From: Lachnospiraceae bacterium
Lineage (GTDB): Bacteria > Bacillota > Clostridia > Lachnospirales > Lachnospiraceae
NCBI GenBank assembly: GCA_017428265.1
Contig: JAFRRD010000045.1
Coordinates: 1 to 53,931, forward strand
Length of the DNA: 53,931 nt
Direction of reading: 5' to 3'
The notes below the pieces were generated by a model. The model was not told the DNA's origin, searched no databases, and saw only the letters and a program-made list of their open reading frames with translations. The position numbers and the translations under genes are program-made. Shown here piece by piece: positions 33,230 to 49,587 of this stretch (position 1 is the stretch's first letter; each line of letters opens with the position of its first letter).

Positions 33230-34636
33230 TTATCTATATATTTTTTCTTTTCCTTTCAATGCCTGTTCCAGATGATAACCTGCTCTATACACTTTCGCTT
33301 CGTCAAAGGCTTTTCCCATCAATTGAACACTTATTGAAAGATTCCCTTCAGCTGCCCCGCAAGGCATGCTCAGGCAAGGGAATCCCAGCCCGGTTCCGTA
33401 GATGGTATATAAACTAAATAGAATGGATAACGGCTGTACCTTTCCGTTTACAGACATCTCCCGCTGTCCTCTGTTTGGCGCGATGATTGGCATTGTTGGC
33501 ATAACTAACGCATCTAATTTCGCCATCTCTTCCGTCATCTTCTTTCGGAATTCAGCTCGAAGCTTCTGCGCGTCAATATACTGCCATGCTTTGTATCCTT
33601 CCCCTGTTTTCATATGTTCCAAGGTTGCAGGGAAAAATAACTCCGGACTTTCATTGATATAGCGGCGAGAATTGCTATACATATCACAAATACGCACTGT
33701 ATGCGCTGCTGCCGCATACTGGCCGTCCGGATCAGGATGTTTGAGTTCCTGAATCTCCGCACCCAATTCTTTAAGAAGAGCAACTGAATCTTCGACGGCG
33801 TCTCTGACCCGAGTATCGGCCGTATCGTAATACACTTCACGAAGGACGCCAATTCGAACGCCTTTCAGTGGCTCTTCAATCCCCATCGTAAAATCTTCTG
33901 ATGGTCTATTTGCCGAGAATGGATCTCTTTTATCATAGACAGCCATTGTTCCCATCATTATAGCGTTGTCATACACTGTTCGTGTCATTGGGCCGATACA
34001 GTCCGTATTCTCGCTGTGTGCGTAAGCGCCGAAATTGCTCACTCTGCCAAAAGTCGGACGCATTCCCACGGTTCCGCATATCGCACTCGGGATACGGATC
34101 GACCCGGCACAATCTGCACCAACAGAAGCTGGACAGAGATGAGCTGCCAATGCTGCGCCGTTGCCGCCGCTACTTCCCCCAGGAATCTTAGTATCATTGA
34201 GCGGATTATGCACAGGACCAAAAATTGATGCGTCACAGTAAGCGGAGGTGGCAAATTCCTGCGTGTTCAGTTTTCCCAAAAGGACCGCACCAGCGTCTTC
34301 CAGAGCGTCTATTACTCCTGCATTATATTCCGGAACAAAGTTTTCGCAGACTCGGCTGCACATAGTTGTCCGGATCCCTTTTGTGTAAATAATATCTTTC
34401 ACACCATAAGGAATCCCGTCCATCAGGCTTTTAGGCTGACCGGACAAAAGCCGCTTTTCCGCTTCCTTTGCCTGCTGAAGGGCCAGTTCCGGCGATAACG
34501 TCGCCCAAGCATTTAGATCCTTTCGCTGATCGATTGCCTCGAATAAAGCTGTCGTTACCTCAACCGGAGACACTTCCTTTTTTCTGTATAGTTCAGTTAA
34601 CTGACGGACACTAAGCGAGTTCAGTTCTTTGTTCAT
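33230..34636 (-). CDS. Amidase-signature family amidase, module 1
   Basis: 468 aa, cytosolic. The Ser-cisSer-Lys triad is present: Lys in DGIPYGVKDI, cis-Ser in GGSSGGNGAA, and nucleophile Ser in CAGSIRIPSA. The fold is shared with GatA, but no GatB/GatC partner is nearby and it lies at the end of a TRAP-transport operon. A catabolic amide hydrolase is therefore more likely than a tRNA amidotransferase. Last gene of the 12-gene set; gap of 15 bases to the DctM gene upstream. Confidence 0.88.
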   Translation of the reverse strand: MNKELNSLSVRQLTELYRKKEVSPVEVTTALFEAIDQRKDLNAWATLSPELALQQAKEAEKRLLSGQPKSLMDGIPYGVKDIIYTKGIRTTMCSRVCENFVPEYNAGVIDALEDAGAVLLGKLNTQEFATSAYCDASIFGPVHNPLNDTKIPGGSSGGNGAALAAHLCPASVGADCAGSIRIPSAICGTVGMRPTFGRVSNFGAYAHSENTDCIGPMTRTVYDNAIMMGTMAVYDKRDPFSANRPSEDFTMGIEEPLKGVRIGVLREVYYDTADTRVRDAVEDSVALLKELGAEIQELKHPDPDGQYAAAAHTVRICDMYSNSRRYINESPELFFPATLEHMKTGEGYKAWQYIDAQKLRAEFRKKMTEEMAKLDALVMPTMPIIAPNRGQREMSVNGKVQPLSILFSLYTIYGTGLGFPCLSMPCGAAEGNLSISVQLMGKAFDEAKVYRAGYHLEQALKGKEKIYR

Positions 34637-34651
34637 GACAAACCACCTTTT

Positions 34652-35926
34652 TTATTTCAAAAGAGACGGCAGTAAAAGCGTAAACTGCGGCCAGTATGTG
34701 ACAAGAAGAAGGTCAACCAATCCCAGCAGGAAGAATGGAATGCAGCGTTTGAAAGCGCCGGTTATACTAACCTTTCCTATCTTTGATCCGACTAAAATCG
34801 AAACTCCGACAGGCGGTGTGATTACACCCAGGTTAATATTTACGGAACAAATCATACCAAACTGCAACAAGTTCATTCCCATCGCCTTGATTAGATTCAG
34901 CATAAGAGGAACCATCATAACCAGGATAGCCGTTGAATCCATCAGACAGCCAAGGAACAAAAGAATAATGTTGATGATAATCAACGTCAGGAATTTACTG
35001 CTCGTCAGTGTCGTCATGAATTCCATAAACAACTGCGGCAAGCGCCCGGCGATGACTACGTAGGAAGAAGCTTTTGAGATTGCAATCAGTATCATGATTG
35101 CAGCTACAGAAACAGCAGAATTATATAAGGACTTCTTAAGTTGCTGGAATGTCATGGTCTTGTACACGAACATATTGACGATAACAGCATAGACTACTGA
35201 GATAGAAGCCGCTTCCGTAACCGTACAGATTCCAGCGAAAATTGTTCCCAGTACAAGGATTGGCATCAGAAGTGCCCAGATACTGCTTTTCAGTGTAGTC
35301 GCAACTTGTTTGCCGCTGGCTTTTTCCTGTTTGGGAAGGTTATGCTTCTTTCCATAATATAAACAGTAGACCAAAAACGCGACTGTCATTAACACAGCGG
35401 ACGAAATCGTAGCGATAAACAGCTTCTGAACCGAAGTATCCGTTAAGCTCGCGTAAACGATTAATACAATAGATGGAGGAACTATAGGTCCGAGTACTGA
35501 ACTGCAGATCGCCGTTGCGGAAGCAAACTCCTTGTCGTAACCGCTGTCTTCCATTGCAGGAATCGTCATGCCGCCGATAGCAGAGCAGGTCGCGACCGCA
35601 GATCCTGAGATTGCGCCGAATAAAGCCGAAGCCACGACAGTAACTGCGGAAAGTCCACCACGGACTCGTCCCATCAGAACGTTGGCTGTATCCAAGAGTT
35701 TCTTGGATATCCCGAAAGACATAACATTTCCAGCTAAAATAAACAGCGGGATTGAAAGCAATGCGCTGGAATTCAATCCAGCAATAGTTTTTTGAACAAC
35801 CACGAGCATCGGGAATCCGCCCGACGCCAAGCCAATCATCGTTGCAATGGCAATCGCAAGATAGATGGGCAGGCCAAGAATCGACAGACCAAAAAGAAGA
35901 ATAAATACAAGTAATCCAGGATTCAT
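34652..35926 (-). CDS. dctM: TRAP transporter large permease, module 1
   Basis: 424 aa, 11-12 hydrophobic segments, DctM family. Conserved GSAVATCSAIGG and GPIVPPS loops are present. It forms the Na+-coupled channel for an organic acid handed over by DctP. ATGA overlap with the DctQ gene, with a GGAGAGGAGG site. Confidence 0.92.
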   Translation of the reverse strand: MNPGLLVFILLFGLSILGLPIYLAIAIATMIGLASGGFPMLVVVQKTIAGLNSSALLSIPLFILAGNVMSFGISKKLLDTANVLMGRVRGGLSAVTVVASALFGAISGSAVATCSAIGGMTIPAMEDSGYDKEFASATAICSSVLGPIVPPSIVLIVYASLTDTSVQKLFIATISSAVLMTVAFLVYCLYYGKKHNLPKQEKASGKQVATTLKSSIWALLMPILVLGTIFAGICTVTEAASISVVYAVIVNMFVYKTMTFQQLKKSLYNSAVSVAAIMILIAISKASSYVVIAGRLPQLFMEFMTTLTSSKFLTLIIINIILLFLGCLMDSTAILVMMVPLMLNLIKAMGMNLLQFGMICSVNINLGVITPPVGVSILVGSKIGKVSITGAFKRCIPFFLLGLVDLLLVTYWPQFTLLLPSLLK

Positions 35927-36441
35927 TGTTCTGCCTCCTCTCCAGGAAGCTCCCCGTTATTTTTGAATTTAAGGAAATTGATTACAATATTTTCAAGTGA
36001 AAAGATTATCACAAGAACACACCCAATCGGGAATGACATATAAACATCCTTAATCGTAATCGGTAAAGTTGCCGACATTCCTGTTGCTAGCTTCAGCAGG
36101 TCCATCGCATATCGTAAAAAGAACACCATTACCCCAATCGCGATTATGGAAGTAACGGCGGTAAACAATGCCCGGAAGCGTTTGCTCATCATATTCAGTA
36201 TGACATCGACTTGCAAATGACTCTCCCGACGCACTGCAATACACAGACCGAACATAACACAGTAGATGCAGAAATAAACGGCCAGTTCTTCTGCCCATAC
36301 TAAAGAATGATGAAAAACGTATCGCAGAATCGACTGCGTGAACATAATAAGAACGATTCCAGAAAGAAGAACGATCACAAGGATCTTAACTATTTTTTCT
36401 AGGACATCCAGAATTCTTGAATACACTTTTAGAAATGCCAT
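35923..36441 (-). CDS. dctQ: TRAP transporter small permease, module 1
   Basis: 172 aa with four TM helices and the DctQ-type segment SLVWAEELAVYFCIY in the second helix region. Structural partner of DctM. Separated from the DctP gene by a 91-base gap that holds a hairpin. Confidence 0.9.
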   Translation of the reverse strand: MAFLKVYSRILDVLEKIVKILVIVLLSGIVLIMFTQSILRYVFHHSLVWAEELAVYFCIYCVMFGLCIAVRRESHLQVDVILNMMSKRFRALFTAVTSIIAIGVMVFFLRYAMDLLKLATGMSATLPITIKDVYMSFPIGCVLVIIFSLENIVINFLKFKNNGELPGEEAEQ

Positions 36442-36464
36442 CGCACTTGCTCCTTATAACTGTT

Positions 36465-36500
36465 GGCTGCACCGGTGGGTTTTCCCCAGCCGATGCAGCC
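36465..36500 (-). other. Hairpin between dctP and dctQ, module 1
   Basis: On the minus strand GGCTGCA..CGG..GGGG pairs with CCC.CCG.TGCAGCC over about 14 bp with small bulges. No T-run follows, so it is more likely an mRNA-stabilising or partial-termination element that favours DctP over DctQM. The other TRAP module has a hairpin at the same place. Confidence 0.5.
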
Positions 36501-36532
36501 TTTGCAGATTGAGTATTCCTGTGAAGATCCTC

Positions 36533-37585
36533 TTACTTCTTAGGATCAACTTCCTGGATCATCTTTACATATTCATCCAGATAAGGGAATTTTGCAGCAA
36601 AGAATCCGTCCATTGCAGCCATCCACTGGCTGACGTCTGTTTCGATAATCTCGCAACCGGCGTCAACGAACACCTGTTTCTTTTCCGCGGTCTGCTCGAT
36701 TGCCAGATCTGTCAGATACTTGCAAGCTTCTTCGGCAGCTTCTCTTAACGCCTTCTGATATTCAGCCGGCAGATTATTGAAATAAGTCTTGTCAAAGCCA
36801 AAGGAGTCTGTTCCATAAACATGGTTTGTTTCCGTCACATACTTGCAGCATTCATACATGGACAGACCGACAGAAGCACCATACGGATTCTCCTGACCTT
36901 CGCAAGTTCCCTGCTGAATCGCGGTAAAGGCTTCCGAAGCAGAGATCGGGGTAGGGGTTGCGCCGAGCCATGCCCAGGTCTCAATGTACATCGAAGAGGT
37001 CGGAACACGAAGCTTCAGGCCTTTAACATCTTCGACGGTTTTGATGGGCTTCGTCGTGGTCATGATACGCACGCCCTGAAGGCCGGCGCCGAGAAGAATC
37101 TTTCCGCTCTGTTCGCCGATCGCATCCAGAATCTTGCGGCCGACTTCACCTTCCCAAACCTTGCGGTAATGTTCGATGCCGGAATACAGATACGGCGCAG
37201 GGTTGATGTTGGCGATCTCACTCCATGCTGCATAGTTGTCAATGGGGTCAAAGACAATATTGCAGACGCCGGCAGCAAGGCCTTCGATGCATTCTGCGCT
37301 GGTGCCAAGCGCAGAATTCGGATACAGTTCTACGGTCACTTTGCCGTTCGTTTTCTGCGATACAAGTTCGGCAAACTTTTCACCTGCTGTATACACATAG
37401 TCCGAAGTGCCGCAGTTCATATGCATTTTCATCGTCATTTTCGGCAGATCGGTCTGGGTTTCGGCAGGCTTTTGGGTCTCTCCCTGGTTACCAGGGGCTT
37501 CGGTGGTCTGGACGGGCTTATTACCGCAGGCAACCAGCGAAAGGACCAGCAGTAATACCATCACAACACTGATGAGCTTTTTCAT
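36533..37585 (-). CDS. dctP: TRAP transporter substrate-binding lipoprotein, module 1
   Basis: 350 aa. Lipoprotein signal with lipobox LVAC (Cys about 20), short Thr/Glu linker, then the two-lobe DctP fold. The conserved segment ...VEDVKGLKLRVP carries the Arg that normally grips the carboxylate of the ligand. The ligand should therefore be a carboxylic acid; which one is unknown. 18 bases after amidase 2. Confidence 0.92.
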   Translation of the reverse strand: MKKLISVVMVLLLVLSLVACGNKPVQTTEAPGNQGETQKPAETQTDLPKMTMKMHMNCGTSDYVYTAGEKFAELVSQKTNGKVTVELYPNSALGTSAECIEGLAAGVCNIVFDPIDNYAAWSEIANINPAPYLYSGIEHYRKVWEGEVGRKILDAIGEQSGKILLGAGLQGVRIMTTTKPIKTVEDVKGLKLRVPTSSMYIETWAWLGATPTPISASEAFTAIQQGTCEGQENPYGASVGLSMYECCKYVTETNHVYGTDSFGFDKTYFNNLPAEYQKALREAAEEACKYLTDLAIEQTAEKKQVFVDAGCEIIETDVSQWMAAMDGFFAAKFPYLDEYVKMIQEVDPKK

Positions 37586-37603
37586 TTTTTTCCTCCTTAT
37601 TTT

Positions 37604-39094
37604 TTAGCCTTCCGGCTGATATTCATTGTTTCGAAACACAGGCATTCGGCCTGCGCCAGCCGCCTTTTCAAAAGAATATGCCATATGTATAAGCATCCCT
37701 TCAGAATAAGGTCGCGCCATAAATTCAATTCCCACGGGGACTCCTATGGGGGCGTCTGTGGATTTTTGTGAAAAACCGCCCGGAACTGTGATTGCGGGAA
37801 AACCGAGGACCGATGCGATGATTCCGTTTCGCCCTCTTTGCTGCCGACTTACGATTGGTTCTGGCAGAATCTGTTGATGCGGATATACAAAGCAGTCCAG
37901 TCTGTTCTCCGCCATGATTTTCAGCGTTAACAGCCGCAGTTCAGCCGCACGAGAAAGCCGCAGAAGATAGTCATAGTCTTTAAGCGGATCCGTCAGCGCA
38001 GCACATCTCATAAACTCATTTTCAACTGTTTCGTGAATTTTTCCGGTTTGAACCAGATCCGATACTGTTTTAACCGGACAATTTGATGTTGCTGTAAAGT
38101 ATTCTTCCAGCGTCGGCTTAAGTTCATAAAACTGTACGTCGCATTCGGTAAAGACCTTATTGCTGTCAAGTTGAGAAACGTCTATTTCTATGCATTCCGC
38201 TCCCATCGACTGAAGCACATTTTCTGTCTCCCGCATAACGCGAAGAACATCCTTGTCCTTTCCGTATACAGTTTTCAGCAGACCGATCTTTTTTCCGGAC
38301 AGACCGTTTTCCTGAGCAAATGCTACGTAGGAAGACTCTGTTCTTCCAATCTGTTCTGATGTTTTTTTATCTTGCCGGTCAAAGCCTTGGCAGATATCAA
38401 GCAACAGTGCTGCATCCGTTACATTCCTTGTAATTGGTCCAGCCGAATCCTGGGTAAAGGAGCAGGGAATGATTCCACTTCGGGAAAGAAGCCCTGTTGT
38501 GGGGCGCAAGCCTGTCAATCCGCAGGCGCTGGCAGGACTGCGAACCGAATTGGCGCTGTCGCTCCCAATTCCCGCCACAGCCATTCCAACAGCAACGGCA
38601 GCTGCTGTTCCGCCCGAAGAACCGCCGGGTGTTCTTGTCAAGTCATATGGGTTTTTCGTCTGACCGATCAGAGAACCGACCGTCAATCCCTGCCTTGCAA
38701 ATTCGGATAAATTCGCTTTACCTAAGATTATCGCACCTGCTTCTCTTAACTTTTTAACGATAAAAGCATCTTGAGATGGTCTGTTCTCCTTCAGCGATGC
38801 AGACCCGGCTGTCGTCGGCATATCTTTGGTATCGATATTATCTTTGAGAATGATTGGAATGCCATGCAAAAGAGACCGTCTCCCTTTTGTGCGGAATTCT
38901 TCATCTAAAGATTCCGATATCTCTTCTGCCTGTTTATTCACACATATCATTGAGTTTAGGCAGGGACCCTCATGATCAAAGTGTCGAATATTAGATAGAC
39001 AGGAGCGGACCAGTTCCGCAGAACTGATTATCCCATCATCCATCGCTCGAGCTATTTCCGGTATGCTTTTATCTGTCCAAACATAGTCGCTCAT
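37604..39094 (-). CDS. Amidase-signature family amidase, module 2
   Basis: 496 aa. Lys in HGIPIILKDN, cis-Ser in TPGGSSGGTAAA and nucleophile Ser in SANSVRSPASA keep the triad; the usual GGS before the nucleophile reads ANS. Distinct in length and sequence from the module 1 amidase, so the two probably have different substrates or are old paralogues. It ends 18 bases before the DctP gene of module 1. Confidence 0.88.
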   Translation of the reverse strand: MSDYVWTDKSIPEIARAMDDGIISSAELVRSCLSNIRHFDHEGPCLNSMICVNKQAEEISESLDEEFRTKGRRSLLHGIPIILKDNIDTKDMPTTAGSASLKENRPSQDAFIVKKLREAGAIILGKANLSEFARQGLTVGSLIGQTKNPYDLTRTPGGSSGGTAAAVAVGMAVAGIGSDSANSVRSPASACGLTGLRPTTGLLSRSGIIPCSFTQDSAGPITRNVTDAALLLDICQGFDRQDKKTSEQIGRTESSYVAFAQENGLSGKKIGLLKTVYGKDKDVLRVMRETENVLQSMGAECIEIDVSQLDSNKVFTECDVQFYELKPTLEEYFTATSNCPVKTVSDLVQTGKIHETVENEFMRCAALTDPLKDYDYLLRLSRAAELRLLTLKIMAENRLDCFVYPHQQILPEPIVSRQQRGRNGIIASVLGFPAITVPGGFSQKSTDAPIGVPVGIEFMARPYSEGMLIHMAYSFEKAAGAGRMPVFRNNEYQPEG

Positions 39095-39111
39095 CCTGCC
39101 GCGCTCCTATA

Positions 39112-40404
39112 CTAGTGCTTTATGCTCTCAATCAAGTTCGGAAGGAATTTGATGATAGGTTCACAGTATGTGAGCAGCAGGAGAACGGTAATCTCTGCGA
39201 TCAACATAGGAATGACCCGGCGCAGCATCTTCCCGAAATCAACTTTTGAAATATTGTCGACCACATATAGGCACATTCCGACAGGCGGTGTAATCAGACC
39301 GATGTTGATGTTCACAATAAAGATGATGCCCAGATAAATGGCGTCAACACCAACAGAAGCCATGATTGGGGCCAGAATCGGGGCTAAAATCAGAATAGCA
39401 GCATTCGTTTCCATAAAGCATCCCGCTATCAGCAGGATTATATTTACCAGCAACAGAAGAACGAATTTGCTGTTTGTAAACCCTAGAACAGCATCAGTCA
39501 GCATCTGCGGCACTCTAAGAGTTGCCAGAACCCACGACACGGCATTGGCTGTCGCAATTACGAATAAAATACCTGCTGAACTGATTGCGGAATCTTCTGC
39601 GATTTTGAAAAACTCTTTCAGCGTCATATCCCGGTAAAAAACCAGTTCCAGAAGGACTGCATATAGAACTGCGACTACCGCGGCTTCAGTAGGGGTAAAG
39701 ATTCCGCCGTAGATTCCACCCAAAATGATTAACGGCATCATCAACGCAGGAATCGCATGAATAAAGTTTTTAAACTTTTCTTTCGCCGACAGTTTCTCTC
39801 CGACAGGATAACCCTTCTTCTTCGCAGTGAAATAGCAGACGATCATCAGTGATATTCCTAACAGGACTCCTGGAATAACACCGGCCATAAACATAGTGGC
39901 GATTGAAGCGCCAGTTGTAGCGCAACAATATACAATCATTGGCACACTGGGAGGAATGATTGGCCCCATAACAGCCGAGCTGGCGACCAAGGCTGAACTA
40001 AAATCATCATCATAACCGAGTCTTGTCATGCTCGGAATCATCAGTGCGCCAATGCAGGCCGCTGTTGCAACAGCTGAGCCAGAAAGAGCAGCAAAAAACA
40101 TACAGGCTAATACCGCTACCATCCCCATGCCGCCTCGAACATGTCCTACGAGAGCATAAGCAAAATCAATGAGCTTCTTGGCAAAAATACCTCTGCTCAT
40201 AATCGACCCCGCGAAGATAAAAAACGGGATCGCCATTAGCGGAAAAGAATCCACACCGGAAGACATTCTCTGCACGATTGCGACCAGCGGCAGGTTTGTT
40301 TCCAGTTTTAATAATAGAGCCGACAACGCTCCCATAGAGAAACCGACGGGAACACCGATAATAATCAAAAGAATCAGTAAGATTGAAAACAGGAGAAACA
40401 ACAT
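39112..40404 (-). CDS. dctM: TRAP transporter large permease, module 2
   Basis: 430 aa, DctM family with 11-12 hydrophobic segments and the conserved GSAVATAACIGA and GPIIPPS loops. Only distantly similar to the module 1 permease (clearly below near-identity by eye). One base after the DctQ stop. Confidence 0.92.
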   Translation of the reverse strand: MLFLLFSILLILLIIIGVPVGFSMGALSALLLKLETNLPLVAIVQRMSSGVDSFPLMAIPFFIFAGSIMSRGIFAKKLIDFAYALVGHVRGGMGMVAVLACMFFAALSGSAVATAACIGALMIPSMTRLGYDDDFSSALVASSAVMGPIIPPSVPMIVYCCATTGASIATMFMAGVIPGVLLGISLMIVCYFTAKKKGYPVGEKLSAKEKFKNFIHAIPALMMPLIILGGIYGGIFTPTEAAVVAVLYAVLLELVFYRDMTLKEFFKIAEDSAISSAGILFVIATANAVSWVLATLRVPQMLTDAVLGFTNSKFVLLLLVNIILLIAGCFMETNAAILILAPILAPIMASVGVDAIYLGIIFIVNINIGLITPPVGMCLYVVDNISKVDFGKMLRRVIPMLIAEITVLLLLTYCEPIIKFLPNLIESIKH

Positions 40405-40405
40405 T

Positions 40406-40900
40406 TTACAGCTCCTCCTTTTCTTGATTTGTTTTTCTGCGTTCGCAGATCTTTGCTATGTATTTCCAACATAGATATATGATTGAGATTGCGCCGCCAA
40501 CAGGGATACTCAGATACACCAGCGAGGTCGGAATTCCGATGGCTGGCGTCGTCTGTTTCGATGTCGCTTTGACCAATTGTATGCCCTGATACAGAGAAAA
40601 CACCGAAAACGCCAGAAGCAGAAGATCTGTGAAGATCTTCATTCCTGTTGCTACGAGTTTAGGCATACGTGAAACGATATCGGTCATAGCGATATGCGTT
40701 CCCTTTTTTATAGCGTAGGCAGCACCGATAAAAGTGAGCCAGATCTGCAAATATCTGGCCGCCTCTTCTGACCATGCCAAAGACGATTTTATGACATAAC
40801 GGAACAGTACCTGAAGCAGCGCTATGATTGTCATGACGATCAGAGTTGTACCGAGAATAGCTCGGAGGATTTTATCAAATGTATTATCCTTTGATTCCAT
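40406..40900 (-). CDS. dctQ: TRAP transporter small permease, module 2
   Basis: 164 aa, four TM helices, DctQ signature SLAWSEEAARYLQIW. Partner of the DctM encoded next to it. Confidence 0.9.
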   Translation of the reverse strand: MESKDNTFDKILRAILGTTLIVMTIIALLQVLFRYVIKSSLAWSEEAARYLQIWLTFIGAAYAIKKGTHIAMTDIVSRMPKLVATGMKIFTDLLLLAFSVFSLYQGIQLVKATSKQTTPAIGIPTSLVYLSIPVGGAISIIYLCWKYIAKICERRKTNQEKEEL

Positions 40901-40926
40901 AGATATCCTCCCTCCTTTTTTCTTTT

Positions 40927-40959
40927 GGGGCGCCAGGATATGAATGCATCTGACGCCCC
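40927..40959 (-). other. Hairpin between dctP and dctQ, module 2
   Basis: GGGGCGTCAG / CTGGCGCCCC, a 10-bp stem with one G-T wobble, followed by AAAAG on the minus strand. Same position as the 36465-36500 hairpin; probably sets a DctP excess. Confidence 0.55.
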
Positions 40960-40979
40960 TGTAAAACAGATAAATGTGT

Positions 40980-41999: not shown

Positions 42000-42045
42000 T
42001 TTCTTTCCTCCTCTTTAATCGCCTCACAAGGCGTTAGATTCTGAA

Positions 42046-42678
42046 TTACTGTTTTGCCTCTGCCATAGCGCGGAACAATTCTGCCCCTCTGGTCGGATTG
42101 AACGCACCGCAGATACATAGTTTGCAGACCTCGTTTGATGCTTGTTCTGCAGTTTCAAAACCGCGACGGATACGGTTCACGTGATATAGAACCATATCAC
42201 CTGTAATCATACCGTGTCCACACATCGTCGTAATCTCCCGTTCCTTGTCGCCGGCCAGTTTCTCCCGCCGACCAAAAACACCGAGGGAAAGATTTACCGT
42301 ATGGACCTTAAGACCGACTTTATCGCAGCATTCTTTAACCTGATCCATCAAGCCGGAGACTACAACGCTCATTCCCAGGTCTTCTTTTTTCAATGCTTCG
42401 AGGAAGCCGATCAAACTCTCCGGATTATCAAAAACAACCAGGCAGACGCAGCCATCCGTTGTTTTGCGTACGATAGTGTCGTAATCGAACGCCGCCAGAG
42501 AGCCCGTGTTCTTATTTTCCCCGATGTTAACCGGTCCGAACTGACGCGCCAGTTCAAAATATCGTTGGAATTTCGGCCCTGAACCTTCCGTGTTGAAGCC
42601 CTGCGCCGCCATACTCAAGACAACATAATCGCCCTTGAGACTTTCTATAGTGCCTTCTCTGTGTAAAGTGTGTGACAT
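42046..42678 (-). CDS. Cysteine-rich protein of unknown function, partner of a ferredoxin-domain protein
   Basis: 210 aa, no signal or TM. Eight cysteines: C77/C79 (GCVCLV), C117/C118, C153 (MCGHGM), and C185, C188, C190 (VCKLCICGAFNPTRG). The last group looks like a metal or Fe-S site. The gene is 14 bases after the ferredoxin-domain gene, which suggests a redox pair. I do not recognise the family. The segment SMAAQGFNTEGSG and the CGHGMITGDM motif are distinctive search handles. Confidence 0.75.
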   Translation of the reverse strand: MSHTLHREGTIESLKGDYVVLSMAAQGFNTEGSGPKFQRYFELARQFGPVNIGENKNTGSLAAFDYDTIVRKTTDGCVCLVVFDNPESLIGFLEALKKEDLGMSVVVSGLMDQVKECCDKVGLKVHTVNLSLGVFGRREKLAGDKEREITTMCGHGMITGDMVLYHVNRIRRGFETAEQASNEVCKLCICGAFNPTRGAELFRAMAEAKQ

Positions 42679-42692
42679 GATCTTCCCCCTGT

Positions 42693-43394
42693 TTAATCAA
42701 CGTGGCCGAGACCAACATTATTTTTGGCGTTAGGTCTGTACCAGATACCTGCGGCATCAAGAATGTTTCTGGCGTCATTTGTTCCGTCCTCGTTATTGAC
42801 GCATACTACATCAAGACTAAAGACCGTATCGATATTATCCGCTTCTTCGATCACGGCTTCGACGCACTCTTGGAGTTTTTCGATGGGCACTGTTACTTCC
42901 ACAATACCGGAGATCACCCTCTCATCCAGAATTTCAGGATTGATCTTTCCGGTCTTGAGATCAACGATATAACTGGTAATAGGATTTCTTTCTTCAAACT
43001 CTGCTCCGTGTTCAGCCAAAGCCATAGAGATTTTTTCCAGATCACGCAACGTCGTAGAGACCTGCGGACGCCCCATTTCTACCGCAATACCGGCAAATCC
43101 TTTTTTATAGCGATGGGTTACGTCATTGGTTTTCATTTCCTCCGTTCCGCGACCGTTAACTCCTCTGTATACTGTCGTGACATCACTCATTTGAGAACGC
43201 ACCTGACGAGGCCATTCAAGCGGAACTTTTTCCAAGGCGTCTTGTGAACATACTGCTGCACGCTGGCAATTTGCACATTCAGTGCACATGTTTTGATCAA
43301 TCTCAGCCTTGCGATTTACAATCCGTATTGCACGAACAGGACAGTAAATTAGGCACCTGCCACAGCCGATACATTTGTCTTTGTTAACAATCAT
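42693..43394 (-). CDS. Ferredoxin-domain protein with uncharacterised C-terminal domain
   Basis: 233 aa from the ATG at 43394, which has AAAAGGAG before it; the frame upstream is the tail of abfD in another frame. Residues 1-55 hold two Fe-S clusters: C8, C11, C14, C18-Pro (typical [4Fe-4S]) and C37, C40, C43, C49 (longer last spacing). Residues about 80-233 form an alpha/beta domain without recognised family (RYKKGFAGIAVEMGRPQVS, then EVTVPIEKLQECVEAVIEEA). Probably carries electrons between ferredoxin/PFOR and the Cys-rich partner. Confidence 0.8.
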   Translation of the reverse strand: MIVNKDKCIGCGRCLIYCPVRAIRIVNRKAEIDQNMCTECANCQRAAVCSQDALEKVPLEWPRQVRSQMSDVTTVYRGVNGRGTEEMKTNDVTHRYKKGFAGIAVEMGRPQVSTTLRDLEKISMALAEHGAEFEERNPITSYIVDLKTGKINPEILDERVISGIVEVTVPIEKLQECVEAVIEEADNIDTVFSLDVVCVNNEDGTNDARNILDAAGIWYRPNAKNNVGLGHVD

Positions 43395-43408
43395 TTTTTC
43401 ACTCCTTT

Positions 43409-44878
43409 TCAGTTCTGGATCCCGGTGATTGCCTTCGCCAGTTTTTTCTTGCCCTGAATATCGCCCTGGCGCGCGATCATGACGCGCTGCGCCTGAGGGG
43501 AACCGGCCCCGTGCAGGGATTCCGTGCGGTAGCCGACGGCCGCGGCGCCGATGCACACGTTTTCCAGGAAACGCATGATCTTCTGCCGGTCCTCGGTGCT
43601 GACTCCCTCGCGGGCGGCAAAGTACTTGTTGCAGATCTCCCCGATGGTCTCGCCCATGCTGCCTACTGGCAGATCGGACTTGAAGTCCGCGTCGCTCGGC
43701 ATGGTGACCATCAGGCCGCCGGCAATGTCCTCCGCCAGACGCACGATCTCGTACGGGAAGCGGGTGACGTTCTGCTTGCAGACGTTGGCCAGCAGCAGAT
43801 CGATCTGATAGTTGCCGGCTTTCGTGGGGCAGCCTTCGCAGGAGCAGGCGATGCCGCAGGAGTAAAGCGTCTCGTTCAGATGCGTCATCTCGATCAGCTT
43901 GTCCTTGATGTGGCTGGCTTTTTCCACGCCGTTGTACTCGGCCGCGAGCGCCGCTGCGCCGATGACCACGTCGCCCACGCCGACCTTGCAGCCCCCGTAG
44001 CTCTGGCGGTGATAGCCGGCGAAGCGCTCCACGAGCATACCGGCAAATTCATATTCCCCGTTGAGGAAGATGTATTCGTTGGGGATGAAGACGTGATCCA
44101 GCACTACTAGGGCTTCCTGGCCGCCGAACTTGCTGTTGCCCACGTCGATGCAGCCGTCCTCCAGCTTGCGGGTGTCGCAGGACTGGCGGCCGTAGACCAT
44201 GTAGAGGCCTTCCGCGTCCGCGGGGCAGGCAAAGGATACGGCATAGTCGCTGTCGGCCTCGCCCATGGCGATGGTCGGCATGAAAATGATCCAGTGGCTG
44301 TTGACCGCGCCGGTCTGATGGACCTTCGCGCCGTTGACGACGATGCCGTCGGGGCGTCTCTCCACCACGCGGAGGAAGAGATCGGGATCCTTCTGTTCGT
44401 GCGGTGCCTTGCTGCGGTCGCCCTTCGGGTCGGTCATCGCACCGTCTACGGTCAAGTCGCGTTCCTGCACCATCATCAGGAAGTTCTTGAAATTCTCCTG
44501 GTAATGGGTGCCGTGCACGGCATCCACCTCATAGGTCGTGGAATAGACGGCATTGAACGCGTCCATGCCCACGCAGCGCTGAAAACAGGAAGCGGTCTTC
44601 CGGCCGCACAGGCGCAGCATCTTCACCTTTTTCACCAGATCCTCCGCGGACTGGTGCAGATGGGTAAAGCGGTTGATCTTTTTCCCCGTCAGGCTGGAGG
44701 TGACGGTCATCAGGTCCTCGTACTCCGGATTCTGCGCCAGCGCGTAAGTCACAGCCACGCAGTTGATGGAGGGACGGATGATGGGATGATCCACCCAGTT
44801 GTCTATCTTTTCGCCGAACATGTAAACACGGGTCTTCAGCTTGCGCAGGGAATCAATATACTCTGTCGCGGTCATCAT
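43409..44878 (-). CDS. abfD: 4-hydroxybutyryl-CoA dehydratase / vinylacetyl-CoA isomerase
   Basis: 489 aa. FAD and [4Fe-4S] enzyme that dehydrates 4-hydroxybutyryl-CoA to crotonyl-CoA. The sequence closely follows the Clostridium aminobutyricum enzyme as I remember it. The unusual cluster ligands are all present: C98 and C102 (CFQRC), H290 and C297 (HRQSYGGC), matching C99, C103, H292 and C299 there. It allows 4-hydroxybutyrate or GABA/succinate carbon to enter butyrate fermentation. No CoA-transferase or 4-hydroxybutyrate dehydrogenase is in the window. GC-rich like nifJ, unlike the genes downstream. Confidence 0.92.
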   Translation of the reverse strand: MMTATEYIDSLRKLKTRVYMFGEKIDNWVDHPIIRPSINCVAVTYALAQNPEYEDLMTVTSSLTGKKINRFTHLHQSAEDLVKKVKMLRLCGRKTASCFQRCVGMDAFNAVYSTTYEVDAVHGTHYQENFKNFLMMVQERDLTVDGAMTDPKGDRSKAPHEQKDPDLFLRVVERRPDGIVVNGAKVHQTGAVNSHWIIFMPTIAMGEADSDYAVSFACPADAEGLYMVYGRQSCDTRKLEDGCIDVGNSKFGGQEALVVLDHVFIPNEYIFLNGEYEFAGMLVERFAGYHRQSYGGCKVGVGDVVIGAAALAAEYNGVEKASHIKDKLIEMTHLNETLYSCGIACSCEGCPTKAGNYQIDLLLANVCKQNVTRFPYEIVRLAEDIAGGLMVTMPSDADFKSDLPVGSMGETIGEICNKYFAAREGVSTEDRQKIMRFLENVCIGAAAVGYRTESLHGAGSPQAQRVMIARQGDIQGKKKLAKAITGIQN

Positions 44879-44896
44879 GATGGATTATCCTCCTCT

Positions 44897-47800
44897 TTAT
44901 TCCTTGGCGAGCTTCACATAGCTCTCGTAACGCTCTTTAGCGTCGCCGGCTGCCTTGGCATACAGCGCGTCAGCCTTCTCCGGGAAGGACAGTTTCAGGG
45001 AAGCGTAGCGGTTCTCTCCCATCAGGAACTGCTGGAAATCGCCTGTCGGTGGCTTGGAATCCAGCTGGAACGGGTTCTTTCCTTCTGCCTTCCGGCGCGG
45101 ATCGTAACGGTACAGGTGCCAGTAGCCGCATTCCACCGCCTTCTTCTCCTCGATCTGGGAAAGACCCATGCTTGCCTTCATGCCGTGCTCGATGCAGGGG
45201 CAGTAGCAGATGACGATCGACGGGCCGTCGTAGGCTTCCGCTTCGCGGATCGCCTTCAACGTCTGCGCCGGATCGGCGCCCATAGCCACCTGGGCCACAT
45301 AGACATAGCCGTAGCTCATGGCCATCAGGCCCAGATCCTTCTTCTTGGTCACCTTTCCGCCGGCGGAGAACTTGGCGATCGCCGCTGCTGCCGTGGCCTT
45401 CGAGGACTGGCCGCCTGTATTGGAATAGACCTCCGTGTCCAGGACCAGCAGGTTGATGTTACGGCCGGAAGCCAAAACGTGGTCCAGGCCGCCGTAGCCG
45501 ATATCGTAGGCCCAGCCGTCACCGCCGAAAGCCCAAATGCTCTTCTTGGTCAGGTATTCCTTATTATTCCGGACGAATTCGGCTTCTTCCCCTTCCATGG
45601 TCTCCAGTGCGGCAAGCAGCGCGTCGCTCGCTTCGCGGGATTCGGCGTAGGTCGCCGTCTTCTCCAGATAGTTCCGGCACGCCTCTTTGGCAATGCCGCG
45701 CTCCGCGAGTTTTCCGACCGCCGCGCGCAGCTGGCGCTGCACGGCATCCTGTCCGAGCAGATAGCCGTAGGCGTACTCAGCATTGTCTTCAAACAGGCTC
45801 ATCGCCCAGGACGGGCCGAAACCGTTCTTATCGGTGCAGTAAGGCGAGCTGGGCGTGGAGCCGCCGTAGGCGGAGGAACAGCCGGAAGCGTTCGTGATGT
45901 ACATGTGGTCGCCGAAAAGCTGCGTGACCAGTTTGATGTAAGGCGTTTCCCCGCAGCCGGCGCAGGCCCCGGAGAATTCGAAATACGGCTTCGCGAACTG
46001 GGATGCCTTCACGCTTCTGTCGTTCACAGCGTCCTTCTTGATGCTGACCGTTTCGACCGCGTATTCCCATCGGGGCGCTTCGCCCAGCTGGCTTTCGAGC
46101 GGCTGCATCGTCAGCGCCTTATCCTTCGCCGGGCAGATGTTCGCGCAGCTTCCGCAGCCGGTGCAGTCATACGGCGAGACCTGGATGCGGTACTGATACC
46201 TGTCGAGCCCCGGTCCGAGCGCCTTCTTCGTCTCGAAGCCTTCGGGCGCGCCCTGCTGTTCGGCCTCGTCCAGGAGCACAGGACGGATGGCGGCATGCGG
46301 GCAGACCAGCGAGCACTGGTTGCACTGGATGCATTTCGTGACGTCCCACTTCGGCACTTCCACGGCGGCGCCGCGTTTTTCGTATTTCGTGGTGCCGGCC
46401 GGCCACGTGCCGTCTTCCAGATGATATTTCTTCATGACCGAGACCGGCAGACTGTCGCCCTCCTGACGGTTCATTACGTCGACGACTTCCCGGACGAATT
46501 CCGGCGCGTTCCGCTCCTCCGGAACGTCCTGTGCCGTCAGCCATCTTTCGGGGATCTCTATCCTGACCAGTTCGTTGATGCCGTGTTCGATGGACGCATA
46601 GTTCATGTCAACGACCGCCTGGCCCTTTTTAATATAGTAGGTCTTGTAAATGGCGTCCTTCATCTCGTTCACGGCCAGCTCCAGCGGGATCACCTCCGCC
46701 AGTTTGAAGAAGGCAGCCTGAAGGATCGTATTGGTGCGGTTGCCCAGTCCCAGGCCGCGCGCGATCCGGATCGCGTCGATCGTATAGAACCTGGCTTTCT
46801 TTTCCGCCAGGGCGCGCTTCATGGACGCCGGCAGCTTCTTCTCCAGTTCGCCGGCATCCCAGGGGCAGTTCAGAAGAAACACGCCGCCCTCCTTCAGATT
46901 CCTGACCATGTCGTATTTCCGGACGTAGGAAGGGGTGTGGCAGGCCACGAAGTCGGCGGACCGGATCAGGTACGGCGAACGGATCGGCTGCCTGCCGAAG
47001 CGCAGATGGCTCTGCGTCAGGCCGCCCGACTTCTTGGAGTCGTAGACGAAGTAGGCCTGGCAGTACATATCCGTCGTATGGCCGATGATCTTGATGGAGT
47101 TCTTGTTCGCGCCGACGGTACCGTCGCCGCCCATGCCCCAGAATTCGGCGCCTGTTTGGCCGGCCGGGGAGGTATCGATATCGCGGAGGATCGGAAGCGA
47201 GGTACCGGTCACGTCGTCTTCGATGCCCACGGTAAAGCTGTTCTTCGGTTTGTCCAGCTTCAGGTTGTCCAGAACGGCGATGATCTGTCCCGGCGTGGTA
47301 TCCTTGGAGGAAAGGCCGTAGCGTCCGCCGACGATCGTCAGTTTCTTATCCTGCGCCTGGCAGACGGAGCAGATGTCCTGGTAGAGCGGTTCGCCCATGG
47401 CGCCCGGCTCCTTGACGCGTTCCATCACAGCAAGGCGGGTGCAGCTTGTCGGGATCGCGGCAAGGAAACGGTCGGCGGCAAACGGACGGTAGAGGTGGAC
47501 GGTGATGAGGCCTACCTTTTCCCCGGCAGCCAGCAGATGATCCACCGCTTCCTTCGCGGTCTCCGCGGCGCTGCCCATCACGACGACGACACGCTCGGCG
47601 TCTTCCGCGCCGTAGTAATCAAAAAGTTTATACTCGCGTCCCGTCAGCCGGCCGATCTCGGCCATGTATTTCTCCACGGCTTCGGGGATCGCCGCCAGCT
47701 TTTCGTTGCAGGCCTCTCGGCACTGGAAGAAGATGTCGGGGTTCACGGTCGTGCCGCGGGTCGCCGGGTGTTCCGGGTTGAGCGCGTTGCGCCGGAAAGC

Positions 47801-48403
47801 CCGAAGAGCGTCCGTGTCGACGAGAGGTTTCAGGTCTTCATAGTCCAGCGCTTCGATCTTCTGGATCTCGTGGCTCGTGCGGAAGCCGTCGAAGAAATGA
47901 AGGAACGGCATCCGACAGTGGATGGCGGCAAGATGCGCCACCGCGCCCAGATCCATGACCTCCTGTGGCGAAGAGGAGGCAAGCAGGGCAAATCCTGTGC
48001 TGCGCACGCCCATGACATCGCTTTGGTCACCGAAAATGGAAAGCGCGTGGGCAGAAAGCGTACGGGCCGATACGTGAAAGACGCCCGGTAGCATCTCGCC
48101 CGCGATCTTGTACATGTTGGGGACCATCAGAAGAAGGCCCTGCGACGCAGTGTAGGTCGTAGTCAGTGCGCCGGACTGAAGGGAACCGTGGACCGCGCCC
48201 GCCGCTCCCCCTTCAGACTGCATCTCTACCACCTGGACTTCTTGTCCAAAGATGTTTTTCTTACCTTTAGCCGCCCATTCGTCAACTAATTCAGCCATAG
48301 GTGATGATGGTGTAATTGGAAATATACTAGCAACCTCAGTAAAAGCATATGATATATATGCTGCCGCCTGATTACCATCCATAATTTCTATTTGTTTTGC
48401 CAT
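44897..48403 (-). CDS. nifJ: Pyruvate:ferredoxin (flavodoxin) oxidoreductase
   Basis: 1168 aa, full-length homodimeric PFOR: pyruvate + CoA to acetyl-CoA + CO2 + reduced ferredoxin. N-terminal pyrimidine-binding domain (PITPSSPM); two ferredoxin-type clusters (CIQCNQCSLVCP and CTGCGSCANICP); proximal cluster region CAGCGETPY with CSSAYGG; TPP-binding GGDGWAYDIGYGG. The first 50-60 codons use AT-rich codons (ATA, AGT, TTA, TCA) while the rest is GC-rich, a sharp change near 48.23 kb that suggests a recombination joint. First gene of the 12-gene set. Other 2-oxoacids remain possible as substrate. Confidence 0.95.
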   Translation of the reverse strand: MAKQIEIMDGNQAAAYISYAFTEVASIFPITPSSPMAELVDEWAAKGKKNIFGQEVQVVEMQSEGGAAGAVHGSLQSGALTTTYTASQGLLLMVPNMYKIAGEMLPGVFHVSARTLSAHALSIFGDQSDVMGVRSTGFALLASSSPQEVMDLGAVAHLAAIHCRMPFLHFFDGFRTSHEIQKIEALDYEDLKPLVDTDALRAFRRNALNPEHPATRGTTVNPDIFFQCREACNEKLAAIPEAVEKYMAEIGRLTGREYKLFDYYGAEDAERVVVVMGSAAETAKEAVDHLLAAGEKVGLITVHLYRPFAADRFLAAIPTSCTRLAVMERVKEPGAMGEPLYQDICSVCQAQDKKLTIVGGRYGLSSKDTTPGQIIAVLDNLKLDKPKNSFTVGIEDDVTGTSLPILRDIDTSPAGQTGAEFWGMGGDGTVGANKNSIKIIGHTTDMYCQAYFVYDSKKSGGLTQSHLRFGRQPIRSPYLIRSADFVACHTPSYVRKYDMVRNLKEGGVFLLNCPWDAGELEKKLPASMKRALAEKKARFYTIDAIRIARGLGLGNRTNTILQAAFFKLAEVIPLELAVNEMKDAIYKTYYIKKGQAVVDMNYASIEHGINELVRIEIPERWLTAQDVPEERNAPEFVREVVDVMNRQEGDSLPVSVMKKYHLEDGTWPAGTTKYEKRGAAVEVPKWDVTKCIQCNQCSLVCPHAAIRPVLLDEAEQQGAPEGFETKKALGPGLDRYQYRIQVSPYDCTGCGSCANICPAKDKALTMQPLESQLGEAPRWEYAVETVSIKKDAVNDRSVKASQFAKPYFEFSGACAGCGETPYIKLVTQLFGDHMYITNASGCSSAYGGSTPSSPYCTDKNGFGPSWAMSLFEDNAEYAYGYLLGQDAVQRQLRAAVGKLAERGIAKEACRNYLEKTATYAESREASDALLAALETMEGEEAEFVRNNKEYLTKKSIWAFGGDGWAYDIGYGGLDHVLASGRNINLLVLDTEVYSNTGGQSSKATAAAAIAKFSAGGKVTKKKDLGLMAMSYGYVYVAQVAMGADPAQTLKAIREAEAYDGPSIVICYCPCIEHGMKASMGLSQIEEKKAVECGYWHLYRYDPRRKAEGKNPFQLDSKPPTGDFQQFLMGENRYASLKLSFPEKADALYAKAAGDAKERYESYVKLAKE

Positions 48404-48459
48404 TCGTTTCGCCTTCCCAATCGGTATGGAATCATTTTATTTGCGTTCTTTTTCACTCT

Positions 48460-48471
48460 ATTGCATACAAT
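48460..48471. promoter_or_regulatory. Probable GntR operator 1 on the nifJ -10 box
   Basis: ATTGCATACAAT, one base from the perfect palindrome ATTGTATACAAT found 92 bases away. It overlaps the predicted nifJ -10 (48469-48474), ideal for repression. Binding by the adjacent GntR protein is inferred. Confidence 0.65.
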
Positions 48472-48497
48472 TTAACACACGGTATTCATTTTGTCAA
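48469..48497 (-). promoter_or_regulatory. Promoter of the nifJ-abfD-TRAP gene set
   Basis: TTGACA (48497-48492), 17-bp spacer, TAAATT (48474-48469), about 65 bases before the nifJ start. Confidence 0.7.
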
Positions 48498-48562
48498 CGG
48501 TAAAGTCGCCATTAATTTATTTGTTTTTTTGCAATCCATATAAATAGAATTCTCTTTGACAG

Positions 48563-48574
48563 ATTGTATACAAT
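48563..48574. promoter_or_regulatory. Probable GntR operator 2 near its own gene
   Basis: ATTGTATACAAT, a perfect 12-base palindrome 57 bases before the regulator start at 48632, next to TTGACA boxes at 48556 and 48582. Suggests autoregulation. Confidence 0.65.
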
Positions 48575-48631
48575 ATTGCTCTTGACAGTACAATCCTAAT
48601 TGTGATAAAACGAAAGAAAAAAGCGAGGCGT

Positions 48632-49279
48632 ATGATGAGTTTACAAAGCACTTATGCTTATAACAAAATTAAAGAAATGATTTTACATATGGAGATGCTT
48701 CCGGGCAGTCGTATTCCAGAAATACAGATAGCAGAAAAACTTGGTATAAGTCGCACGCCTATTCACGACGCACTTCGACGCCTTGAAGCAGAAGAATTAG
48801 TCGTTATTCGCGCCAATCGCGGCGCAGAAGTCAAACTTCTTTCCATGGATGAAGTGAAAGATATTGGCGCTGTGCGTCTAGCTCAAGATTTACTTGCTGT
48901 CAAGCTCGCTTCTTATTATGGGAGTGTTTCAGACTTTGAACGTCTAGAAAAACTTGCTGATGAATGCGAACAAGCAGCCGCAGCCGGAAACAAATATGAA
49001 AGAATCCAGAAAGATATGGATTTTCATATAGCCATCTCCGAAACAGGACATAATAAACGACTCTTAATGCAACAGCAAGAACTCTATCAACAAATACATA
49101 TGATTCAAATAACGAAATACACCGATATTCAGGATTCTCTTATGCAAATTCACCATCATAAACCAATTCTGAATGCAATACGAACCGGCAACACGCACGA
49201 AGCTACAAGGCTTACAATCCAACATATTAAAGACTTTTATCAAATTGAGCCATATTTAATTAGGCAATTTGAGCAATAA
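48632..49279 (+). CDS. GntR-family (FadR/FCD type) transcriptional regulator
   Basis: 215 aa from the ATG at 48632 (GCGAGGCG before it); the ATG at 48602 is an alternative. N-terminal winged helix (about 5-70, PEIQIAEKLGISRTPIHDAL) and a C-terminal helical FCD ligand domain with Asp/His metal residues (DMDFHIAISE and later His). Divergent from nifJ, with paired palindromes between them, so it is the likely ligand-responsive repressor of the 12-gene set. AT-rich, like its promoter and the 5' end of nifJ. Confidence 0.9.
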   Translation: MMSLQSTYAYNKIKEMILHMEMLPGSRIPEIQIAEKLGISRTPIHDALRRLEAEELVVIRANRGAEVKLLSMDEVKDIGAVRLAQDLLAVKLASYYGSVSDFERLEKLADECEQAAAAGNKYERIQKDMDFHIAISETGHNKRLLMQQQELYQQIHMIQITKYTDIQDSLMQIHHHKPILNAIRTGNTHEATRLTIQHIKDFYQIEPYLIRQFEQ

Positions 49280-49552: not shown

Positions 49553-49587
49553 TAACGATTTGTACGGACGCTGTAAAATGTGCGATT
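49553..49587. repeat. 35-bp direct repeat, left copy
   Basis: TAACGATTTGTACGGACGCT followed by GTAAAATGTGCGATT. It matches 51405-51439 with two substitutions. The AbiEii stop codon falls at its right end, so the two copies bracket the AbiE pair. Confidence 0.85.

Follow-up and report, generated by a model that had tools for sequence, protein, structure and literature searches.

A GntR-controlled operon of a Lachnospiraceae bacterium carries a recurrent two-gene pair, FER/CYS, perhaps a redox pair for 2-hydroxy- and 2-oxoacids

The window analysed here, a stretch of 53,931 nucleotides from a Lachnospiraceae bacterium (assembly GCA_017428265.1, contig JAFRRD010000045.1), carries at 33230..49279 twelve genes on the minus strand and, divergent from them on the plus strand, a single gene for a GntR-type regulator. 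Both the positions and the gene families reported in an earlier note made from the sequence alone are borne out, the latter by matches to Pfam, NCBIfam and PDB entries. The operon joins a 2-oxoacid:ferredoxin oxidoreductase (nifJ), a 4-hydroxybutyryl-CoA dehydratase (abfD), two TRAP importers and two amidases with two small genes that we call FER and CYS. By the comparisons made here, the parts appear to be of known kinds except for the C-terminal domain of FER and the whole of CYS, for which the libraries used offer no family. It is this pair, widespread beyond the operon, that we consider of greater interest than the pathway proposed in the earlier note. The features are as follows.

48602..49279, plus strand: GntR, FCD-type regulator (FCD PF07729, 68.4 bits; GntR PF00392, 57.3 bits)
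48404..48601, no strand: divergent control region with two GntR-type operator-like sites
44897..48403, minus strand: nifJ, 2-oxoacid (pyruvate):ferredoxin oxidoreductase (TIGR02176, 1817.8 bits)
43409..44878, minus strand: abfD, 4-hydroxybutyryl-CoA dehydratase (872.7 bits to PDB 1u8v)
42693..43394, minus strand: FER, 2[4Fe-4S] ferredoxin domain and conserved C-terminal domain (GRGTEE..KT, GRP; ferredoxin-domain match and alignments)
42046..42678, minus strand: CYS, Cys/His protein without a named family (alignment of 63)
40980..41999, minus strand: DctP_A, solute-binding lipoprotein with the TRAP GLKxR motif (PF03480, 298.2 bits; PDB 4pdd)
40406..40900, minus strand: DctQ_A, small TRAP permease (PF04290, 111.8 bits)
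39112..40404, minus strand: DctM_A, large TRAP permease (PF06808, 418 bits)
37604..39094, minus strand: amidase A, amidase signature (PF01425, 319 bits; nearest solved structure a peptide amidase, 1m21, E 5e-77)
36533..37585, minus strand: DctP_B, solute-binding lipoprotein with GLKLR motif (PF03480, 224.4 bits)
35923..36441, minus strand: DctQ_B, small TRAP permease (PF04290, 92.3 bits)
34652..35926, minus strand: DctM_B, large TRAP permease (PF06808, 353.9 bits)
33230..34636, minus strand: amidase B, amidase signature, GatA/AtzE-like (PF01425, 351.4 bits; TIGR00132, 319 of 481.1 bits)

The genes are tightly packed, with intergenic gaps of 1–91 bases and one 4-base overlap; the short spacing that had been noted therefore stands, but the large 148-base overlap of FER with abfD does not, being an artefact of an upstream GTG start. 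The likely FER start is the ATG at 43394, which has AAGGAG ahead of it and lies clear of the abfD stop. Purine-rich stretches resembling ribosome-binding sites were seen by eye ahead of all twelve operon genes, those of nifJ and amidase B being the weakest, and the real GntR start may be an in-frame ATG slightly downstream of the called GTG.

To follow the pair beyond the operon, FER was aligned with eight relatives and genome contigs were then scanned with the pattern GRGTEE[VM]K. Of 566 pattern matches, 548 encode FER relatives, and the best 80 of these 548, representing 78 distinct loci, were analysed; tallies over the 78 loci accordingly lean towards near relatives. FER has eight invariant cysteines and the motifs GRGT.E.K and GRP across 62 sequences. 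The constancy of GRGTEE[VM]K among the scan loci is by construction, yet the pattern was already present in 9 of 9 sequences found through CYS. In CYS the invariant positions across 63 sequences are H6-R7, C153-G-H155, C188-x-C190-G and N194. The window CYS has no family in Pfam, NCBIfam or PHROGs, the 63 members give only weak, scattered Pfam matches, and neither FER nor CYS carries a Pfam flavin domain. AlphaFold models of the two proteins have mean predicted local distance difference test (pLDDT) scores of 92.5 (FER) and 95.9 (CYS).

The pairing is near-obligate. FER is present at all 78 loci and CYS at 77, the contig of the remaining locus (L026) ending inside FER, and a script placed CYS directly beside FER for 96 of 102 FER genes, 94 of them in the order FER–CYS. 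The six FER genes scored as unpaired comprise two with overlong starts that overlap CYS (L024 and L069), two at contig ends (L026 and L028), one with CYS about 1.6 kb away (L051) and the first of two FER genes at L036. Distances among FER proteins follow those among CYS proteins (r = 0.81 over 88 pairs plus that of the window, where 500 permutations never exceeded 0.15), a correlation to which shared descent contributes. Chance adjacency is rejected on the strength of this co-variation and of the joint presence at 77 of 78 loci. An apparent FER–CYS fusion in one genome (G314, a 522-codon frame), considered as a link to 6-hydroxynicotinate reductase, proved to be two separate genes, and in-frame TAG codons in three CYS matches are terminal stops. 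The sole fusion seen joins CYS to a C-terminal multi-4Fe-4S part (L057, 6871–8109).

CYS was looked for at four taxonomic ranks, the window's own genome included: it is present in 2 of 295 genomes searched within the order, in 5 of 397 within the family, in 6 of 391 within the class, where one match is weak, and in 27 of 398 within the phylum, where at least one is weak. Within the genus, full-length FER is listed in the own genome and G670 only (2 of 16), other matches being ordinary ferredoxins. Among the groups named in the titles of the 78 loci are Bacillota, delta-proteobacterial groups, Chloroflexota, Bacteroidales, Synergistales and the Asgard Loki-, Hel- and Jordarchaea. A plasmid search gave no match for CYS and four records with partial matches only for FER, the best being an unrelated 568-residue ferredoxin-type protein. 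The own genome holds three further FER/CYS pairs on another contig, C5 (L007, 16466–20000; L008, 3771–5162), where the neighbours are a fused TRAP permease, TctABC-type genes, a split transketolase, a carboxyl-transferase gene and, by eye, a TAXI-like binding protein.

Importers accompany the pair at many loci. At 35 of the 78, the 6 kb around it hold TctA or DctM (TctA at 28, DctM at 8). For TctA, the 844 kb close to the pair gave 32 matches, the 394 kb lying further away gave 3 and the 197 kb of control DNA gave none, the controls being 13 stretches from other contigs of the own genome and of relatives, not matched by group; DctM alone gives a weak signal (9 near the pair, 3 further off, none in the controls). 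Other genes recur within the same distance: beta-hydroxyacid dehydrogenase at 15 loci, amidohydrolase at 11, a Prismane/CO-dehydrogenase (CODH)-family gene at 10, PanB at 9, PdxA at 7 and an M29-like gene at 5, with AOR, amidase and NifJ/POR at four each (AOR in 10 operons by clustering); these counts come from single-query searches and are lower bounds. Enzymes of 2-oxoacids or thiamine pyrophosphate (TPP), searched with seven query types, occur at six.

Several neighbourhoods bear on the possible chemistry. The most telling is an eight-gene set shared by two genomes of the same family as the window genome, G1206 and G1401 (L197, 3702–11311; L198, 7753–15374), which encodes a 2-hydroxycarboxylate (2HCT) importer, FER, CYS, the gamma, alpha and beta subunits of POR, an acetokinase-family kinase and a phosphate acyltransferase; Pfam was run on the G1206 copy only, and G1401 is marked as 11% contaminated. 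Because FER and CYS are the sole other products between a 2-hydroxyacid importer and a 2-oxoacid oxidoreductase, the simplest reading is that they would interconvert 2-hydroxyacid and 2-oxoacid, unless that conversion falls to an enzyme encoded elsewhere in the genome. At a Dysosmobacter locus (L024, 5533–20697), where FER is 81% identical to that of the window, two FER/CYS pairs accompany TctC, a small gene and TctA, together with PdxA, a protein with a Lar_N (lactate-racemase N-terminal) domain, part of an altronate dehydratase, an HpcH aldolase and NifJ; at four further loci (L028, L070, L076 and L079) a protein may be LarA-like, judged by motifs only. Elsewhere FER/CYS stands between a pair of 4Fe-4S and Prismane/CODH-family genes and an NROR-like gene (L032, L081 and L093) or directly after 4Fe-4S, Prismane/CODH-family and NROR-like genes (L059). 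We label these 4Fe-4S and Prismane/CODH-family genes CooF-like and mini-CooS-like, and if the second is indeed mini-CooS, FER/CYS may hint at the function of mini-CooS. Overall, we read FER/CYS as a redox pair, perhaps for 2-hydroxy- and 2-oxoacids. A redox role is in keeping with the eight invariant cysteines of FER, with the multi-4Fe-4S part of the L057 fusion and with the recurrence of Prismane/CODH-family, 4Fe-4S and NROR-like genes near the pair.

The operon itself recurs. In genome G668, a metagenome-assembled genome (MAG) titled as an uncultured Oscillospiraceae and bearing a rabbit-sample label, a single contig (L025) holds a divergent GntR gene (53% identical to that of the window) followed by nifJ (78%), FER (80%), CYS (83%), DctP/Q/M_B (70/63/79%), amidase B (56%), DctP/Q/M_A (67/52/72%) and amidase A (58%). 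The two TRAP/amidase cassettes are thus swapped relative to the window, abfD is missing from the cluster, and the other frames hold no further window gene; in the genome as a whole, AbfD is matched only by 33 C-terminal residues (82% identity) where a contig ends. The same unit, less abfD, is therefore kept in another genome at 52–83% identity, and we regard the operon itself as real because of its presence in G668.

The control regions of the two clusters share operator-like sites. In the window these lie at 48461–48470 (TTGCATACAA) and 48564–48573 (TTGTATACAA), the first overlapping the −10 region of a minus-strand promoter-like site at 48497–48469, and in the G668 control region two copies of TTGCATTCAA stand at 19624 and 19683, against 0.08 expected in 20 kb; two copies were reached in 1 of 200 shuffles. 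The consensus TTGYATWCAA has four matches in the whole window, with the palindrome counted on both strands and one match inside the AbiEii gene, against 0.35 expected; it was picked after the window and G668 control regions had been inspected, which makes these odds optimistic. An exact-match search of the window found no copy ahead of either TRAP/amidase cassette. Separate internal promoters were considered and set aside, since the 20 promoter-like sites are about as many as chance would give (16.7). Terminator-like sites, of which there are 31, outnumber the 17.3 expected, and the window scan placed no minus-strand one in any operon gap, the minus-strand sites being intragenic by eye. The reading that the genes behave as one unit conserved elsewhere is supported at the sequence level, and the lack of any second genome with the cluster, which the earlier note had named as a refutation, does not apply.

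AbfD looks like an ordinary, canonical 4-hydroxybutyryl-CoA dehydratase: its residues 1–487 align with 2–489 of the Clostridium aminobutyricum enzyme (PDB 1u8v), and it keeps all four ligands of the [4Fe-4S] cluster, C98-x3-C102 and H290-x6-C297, which we take to correspond to C99, C103, H292 and C299 in the numbering of the known enzyme. Its link to the set, as had been supposed, is independently supported by two other neighbourhoods. On the complete chromosome of Desulfosarcina widdelii (L060, 10001–20702), one strand carries FER, CYS, a beta-hydroxyacid dehydrogenase, nifJ (55% identical to that of the window) and, 44 bases after it, abfD (63%), followed on the same strand by a gene for a 790-residue protein and the start of a DctP-like gene at the end of the stretch. 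The 790-residue protein presumably bears glycyl-radical-type motifs. In Clostridiaceae BRH_c20a (L091, 3–15333), abfD (60%) precedes further genes that by eye form a run resembling acyl-CoA dehydrogenase, Etf, 3-hydroxyacyl-CoA dehydrogenase and thiolase, and then FER, CYS, TctC, PdxA, TctB and TctA, all on one strand; ahead of abfD stands a partial gene related to one that we labelled indolepyruvate-oxidoreductase-beta-like. Both AbfD copies keep all four cluster ligands. Across the 78 loci, AbfD matches lie within 6 kb of FER at none and further off at three, namely 6.7 kb from the pair in L060, 8.6 kb in L091 and 10.2 kb in L098, where the match is a 123-residue fragment; the controls are uninformative on this point because one of them, L117, was chosen for its abfD. 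The expected co-occurrence of abfD with the pair thus recurs but is not obligatory: together with a 2-oxoacid oxidoreductase, abfD accompanies FER/CYS in the window and L060, and probably in L091.

NifJ, at 1817.8 bits, lies well over the cut-off of its equivalog model TIGR02176 (911.35 bits), and because it is nearer to the NifJ of the G668 cluster (78% identity) than to the own genome's second NifJ on contig C21 (57%), we regard it as a cluster-linked form; the NifJ of L060 is about equally distant from all those compared (53–56%). Both DctPQM sets are complete, with all three components of each over the Pfam cut-offs, and DctP_A and DctP_B both have the GLKxR motif, whose arginine has a carboxylate role in TRAP systems. 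Both amidases score over the PF01425 cut-off, and their Lys/cis-Ser/Ser motifs start at 83/157/183 in amidase A and 79/153/179 in amidase B; neither exceeds the curated cut-off of a named NCBIfam amidase model (best 380.5 of 534 bits for A and 319 of 481.1 bits for B, among the best 25 of 26 families each). These parts fit the carboxylate import and amide hydrolysis that had been predicted.

We propose that the window carries an operon for anaerobic catabolism, controlled by GntR and probably acquired horizontally, in which FER/CYS performs a redox step on a 2-hydroxy- or 2-oxoacid and AbfD forms an optional arm, a reading that we put forward tentatively as possible rather than probable. In this scheme the two TRAP systems would import amide-bearing carboxylates and the two amidases would cut the amide bond, releasing the acid. 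FER, as a 2[4Fe-4S] electron carrier, and CYS, as a metal- or cluster-binding partner, would then change the oxidation state of that acid, most likely by interconverting 2-hydroxyacid and 2-oxoacid, and the NifJ paralog would turn the 2-oxoacid into acyl-CoA and reduced ferredoxin. In the simplest wiring, which is a guess, NifJ would make 4-hydroxybutyryl-CoA directly from 5-hydroxy-2-oxopentanoate and AbfD would act next, so that neither a CoA-transferase nor a 4-hydroxybutyrate dehydrogenase would be needed; the guess is more worth testing because the nifJ–abfD pair is also found in L060. We infer every reaction of FER/CYS, the substrate and the hand-over from NifJ to AbfD. The widest form of the proposal makes FER/CYS a new family of two-subunit ferredoxin-linked oxidoreductases that supplies the shared redox step of many anaerobe and Asgard carboxylate pathways, probably on 2-hydroxy- and 2-oxoacids, and that here and in D. 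widdelii feeds a NifJ whose product from a C5 2-oxoacid, 4-hydroxybutyryl-CoA, passes directly to AbfD. Crotonyl-CoA would then be reached by a new route, starting here from an amide-bearing acid; taken whole, this form is rather unlikely.

Several observations weigh against the proposal. The neighbours of FER/CYS are diverse, NifJ/POR and amidases each occurring at only 4 of 78 loci and 2-oxoacid/TPP enzymes at 6 of 78, and the AOR, Prismane-family, amidohydrolase or oxamate-carbamoyltransferase genes carried by other loci do not necessarily serve the conversion of 2-hydroxyacids. The eight-gene sets of G1206 and G1401 are 89–97% identical and so represent one lineage, a 391-base gap precedes nifJ in L060, and the complete TRAP/amidase cluster was seen in two MAGs only, from one of which abfD is absent. 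In addition, the oxidation of a 2-hydroxyacid (about −190 mV) with ferredoxin is uphill unless confurcated.

In a different chemistry, FER/CYS would use ferredoxin to reduce an enamide or an unsaturated ring, often one that contains nitrogen, with a role like that of 6-hydroxynicotinate reductase or an anaerobic dihydropyrimidine dehydrogenase; the amidases would then open the reduced lactam, and NifJ would supply reduced ferredoxin. C–N hydrolases (amidase, amidohydrolase or cyclase) do lie within 6 kb of the pair at 19 of 78 loci. At L067 (1174–13245), FER/CYS stands between an amidohydrolase and AllH; the set also includes AllG, a CoA-ligase-domain protein that we take to be FdrA-like, an M42 peptidase and an amino-acid-kinase gene, and perhaps serves the anaerobic use of ureides or purines with ATP from carbamoyl phosphate. 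An ECF/ABC-type importer was also seen by eye in the L067 set. L052 has a PucR regulator, and at L020 the pair is beside an amidohydrolase-like gene (by eye) and an NAD-binding_2 dehydrogenase. The eight-gene set from 2HCT importer to phosphate acyltransferase, however, includes neither a hydrolase nor ring chemistry, and the lack of a Pfam flavin domain in FER and CYS also speaks against such a reductase. As to the recurrent amidohydrolase, its identification as an enamidase was rejected: the one tested matches enamidase 2vun weakly (E 3.7e-4) and others far better, its closer matches being enzymes of the arginine carboxypeptidase type. A match to 3cky was obtained for the recurrent dehydrogenase, which other beta-hydroxyacid dehydrogenases match better. 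We regard the ring-reductase role as unlikely.

The earlier note had instead seen the import and hydrolysis of an amide-bearing acid and its fermentation through an AbfD-type radical dehydration of a relative of 4-hydroxybutyryl-CoA. The place of abfD within the operon, where 18 bases separate it from nifJ upstream and 14 from FER downstream, is in keeping with this, as are the nifJ–abfD neighbourhood with FER/CYS and a DctP start in L060 and the presence of abfD in L091. The usual CoA-transferase and dehydrogenase are, as stated there, absent from the operon, and no clear 4-hydroxybutyrate dehydrogenase was found among the two of the genome's three iron-containing alcohol dehydrogenase (Fe-ADH) matches that were scanned; but three CoA-transferases lie elsewhere in the genome, one of them above the cut-off for butyryl-CoA:acetate CoA-transferase. 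The full-length match of AbfD to the known enzyme, with all four ligands kept, tells against an altered substrate, the G668 cluster does without abfD, and a Dysosmobacter genome (G667) has an 83% identical abfD near a contig end with no pathway partner recognised by eye. We judge this pathway distinctly improbable, and preferred to it is the operon reading centred on FER/CYS.

The genomic setting suggests horizontal acquisition. Ten operon genes have a guanine-plus-cytosine (GC) content of 0.40–0.50 and abfD and nifJ one of 0.60, set in a genome of about 0.54–0.61 in the stretches seen; GC at third codon positions (GC3) is 0.84 in abfD and 0.77 in nifJ against 0.43–0.57 in the other ten. On one side the operon is flanked by an extra RNase J gene (31271–32920), 96% identical in amino acids to the own copy on contig C27; the own genome thus has two full-length copies, where 14 other genus members have one each and G684 has two complementary fragments. 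Its homology to the relatives tested is limited to the gene and about 100 bases upstream, and a copy of this one gene appears to have moved to the edge of the island. Directly beyond GntR on the other side (49586–51089) are an AbiEii nucleotidyltransferase gene and an adjacent gene for a 201-residue protein that has no Pfam match and is probably the AbiEi partner. Within window positions 1–28000 there is a drop in GC near 27 kb, with about 0.63 before it and about 0.49 after it, the high-GC side carrying core, host-type genes (OTCace, dihydroorotase-like and MutS2-like). Recent horizontal transfer of the operon is likely, and a mis-assembled contig is a slight residual possibility as the source of the setting. 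The weakest alternative, a mosaic island in which nifJ with abfD, FER/CYS and the two TRAP/amidase modules share a promoter through recent assembly and form no single pathway, draws on the GC3 contrast, on these flanks and on the failure to find abfD in any of the other 15 members of the genus (among the 16 genomes searched, four are less than 90% complete), but is very improbable given that nifJ, FER, CYS, both cassettes and GntR stand together in G668 with operator-like sites in the same region and that nifJ–abfD recurs with FER/CYS in L060.

Searches of the open PubMed Central (PMC) literature gave no paper on the gene set, and none that joined abfD with a TRAP transporter and an amidase or a tripartite tricarboxylate transporter with AOR. 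One assayed FER/CYS pair would annotate hundreds of genome entries, given the 548 FER-pattern relatives. Together with L060, the window operon places abfD beside nifJ and outside the 4-aminobutyrate pathway. A gut survey reported that abfD read numbers are proportionally high relative to the rest of that pathway (PMC5715108). Settings in which abfD accompanies nifJ could be one reason for these high numbers.

Compared with known systems, the operon is closest in its dehydratase to the fermentation of 4-aminobutyrate and succinate to butyrate of the C. aminobutyricum type (abfD, abfH and abfT). AbfD is the same by sequence and ligand pattern, and the window genome has a butyryl-CoA:acetate CoA-transferase above cut-off, whereas the operon lacks abfH and abfT; to our knowledge, that pathway does not involve TRAP importers, amidases, NifJ or FER/CYS. 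Nicotinate fermentation in Eubacterium barkeri proceeds through 6-hydroxynicotinate reductase, enamidase and hydroxymethylglutarate dehydrogenase. Several FER/CYS loci likewise combine a ferredoxin-type protein, a C–N hydrolase and a beta-hydroxyacid dehydrogenase, whereas the window has neither the dehydrogenase nor the amidohydrolase. Compared with mini-CooS/CooF/FNOR gene clusters (PMC8776680), L032, L059, L081 and L093 have a gene trio at FER/CYS that looks similar by our labels, whereas the window has NifJ instead of those genes. Finally, like other TRAP (DctPQM) carboxylate operons, the window has complete DctPQM sets with GLKxR, two of them, but here each set is trailed by an amidase and tied to FER/CYS and a 2-oxoacid:ferredoxin oxidoreductase.

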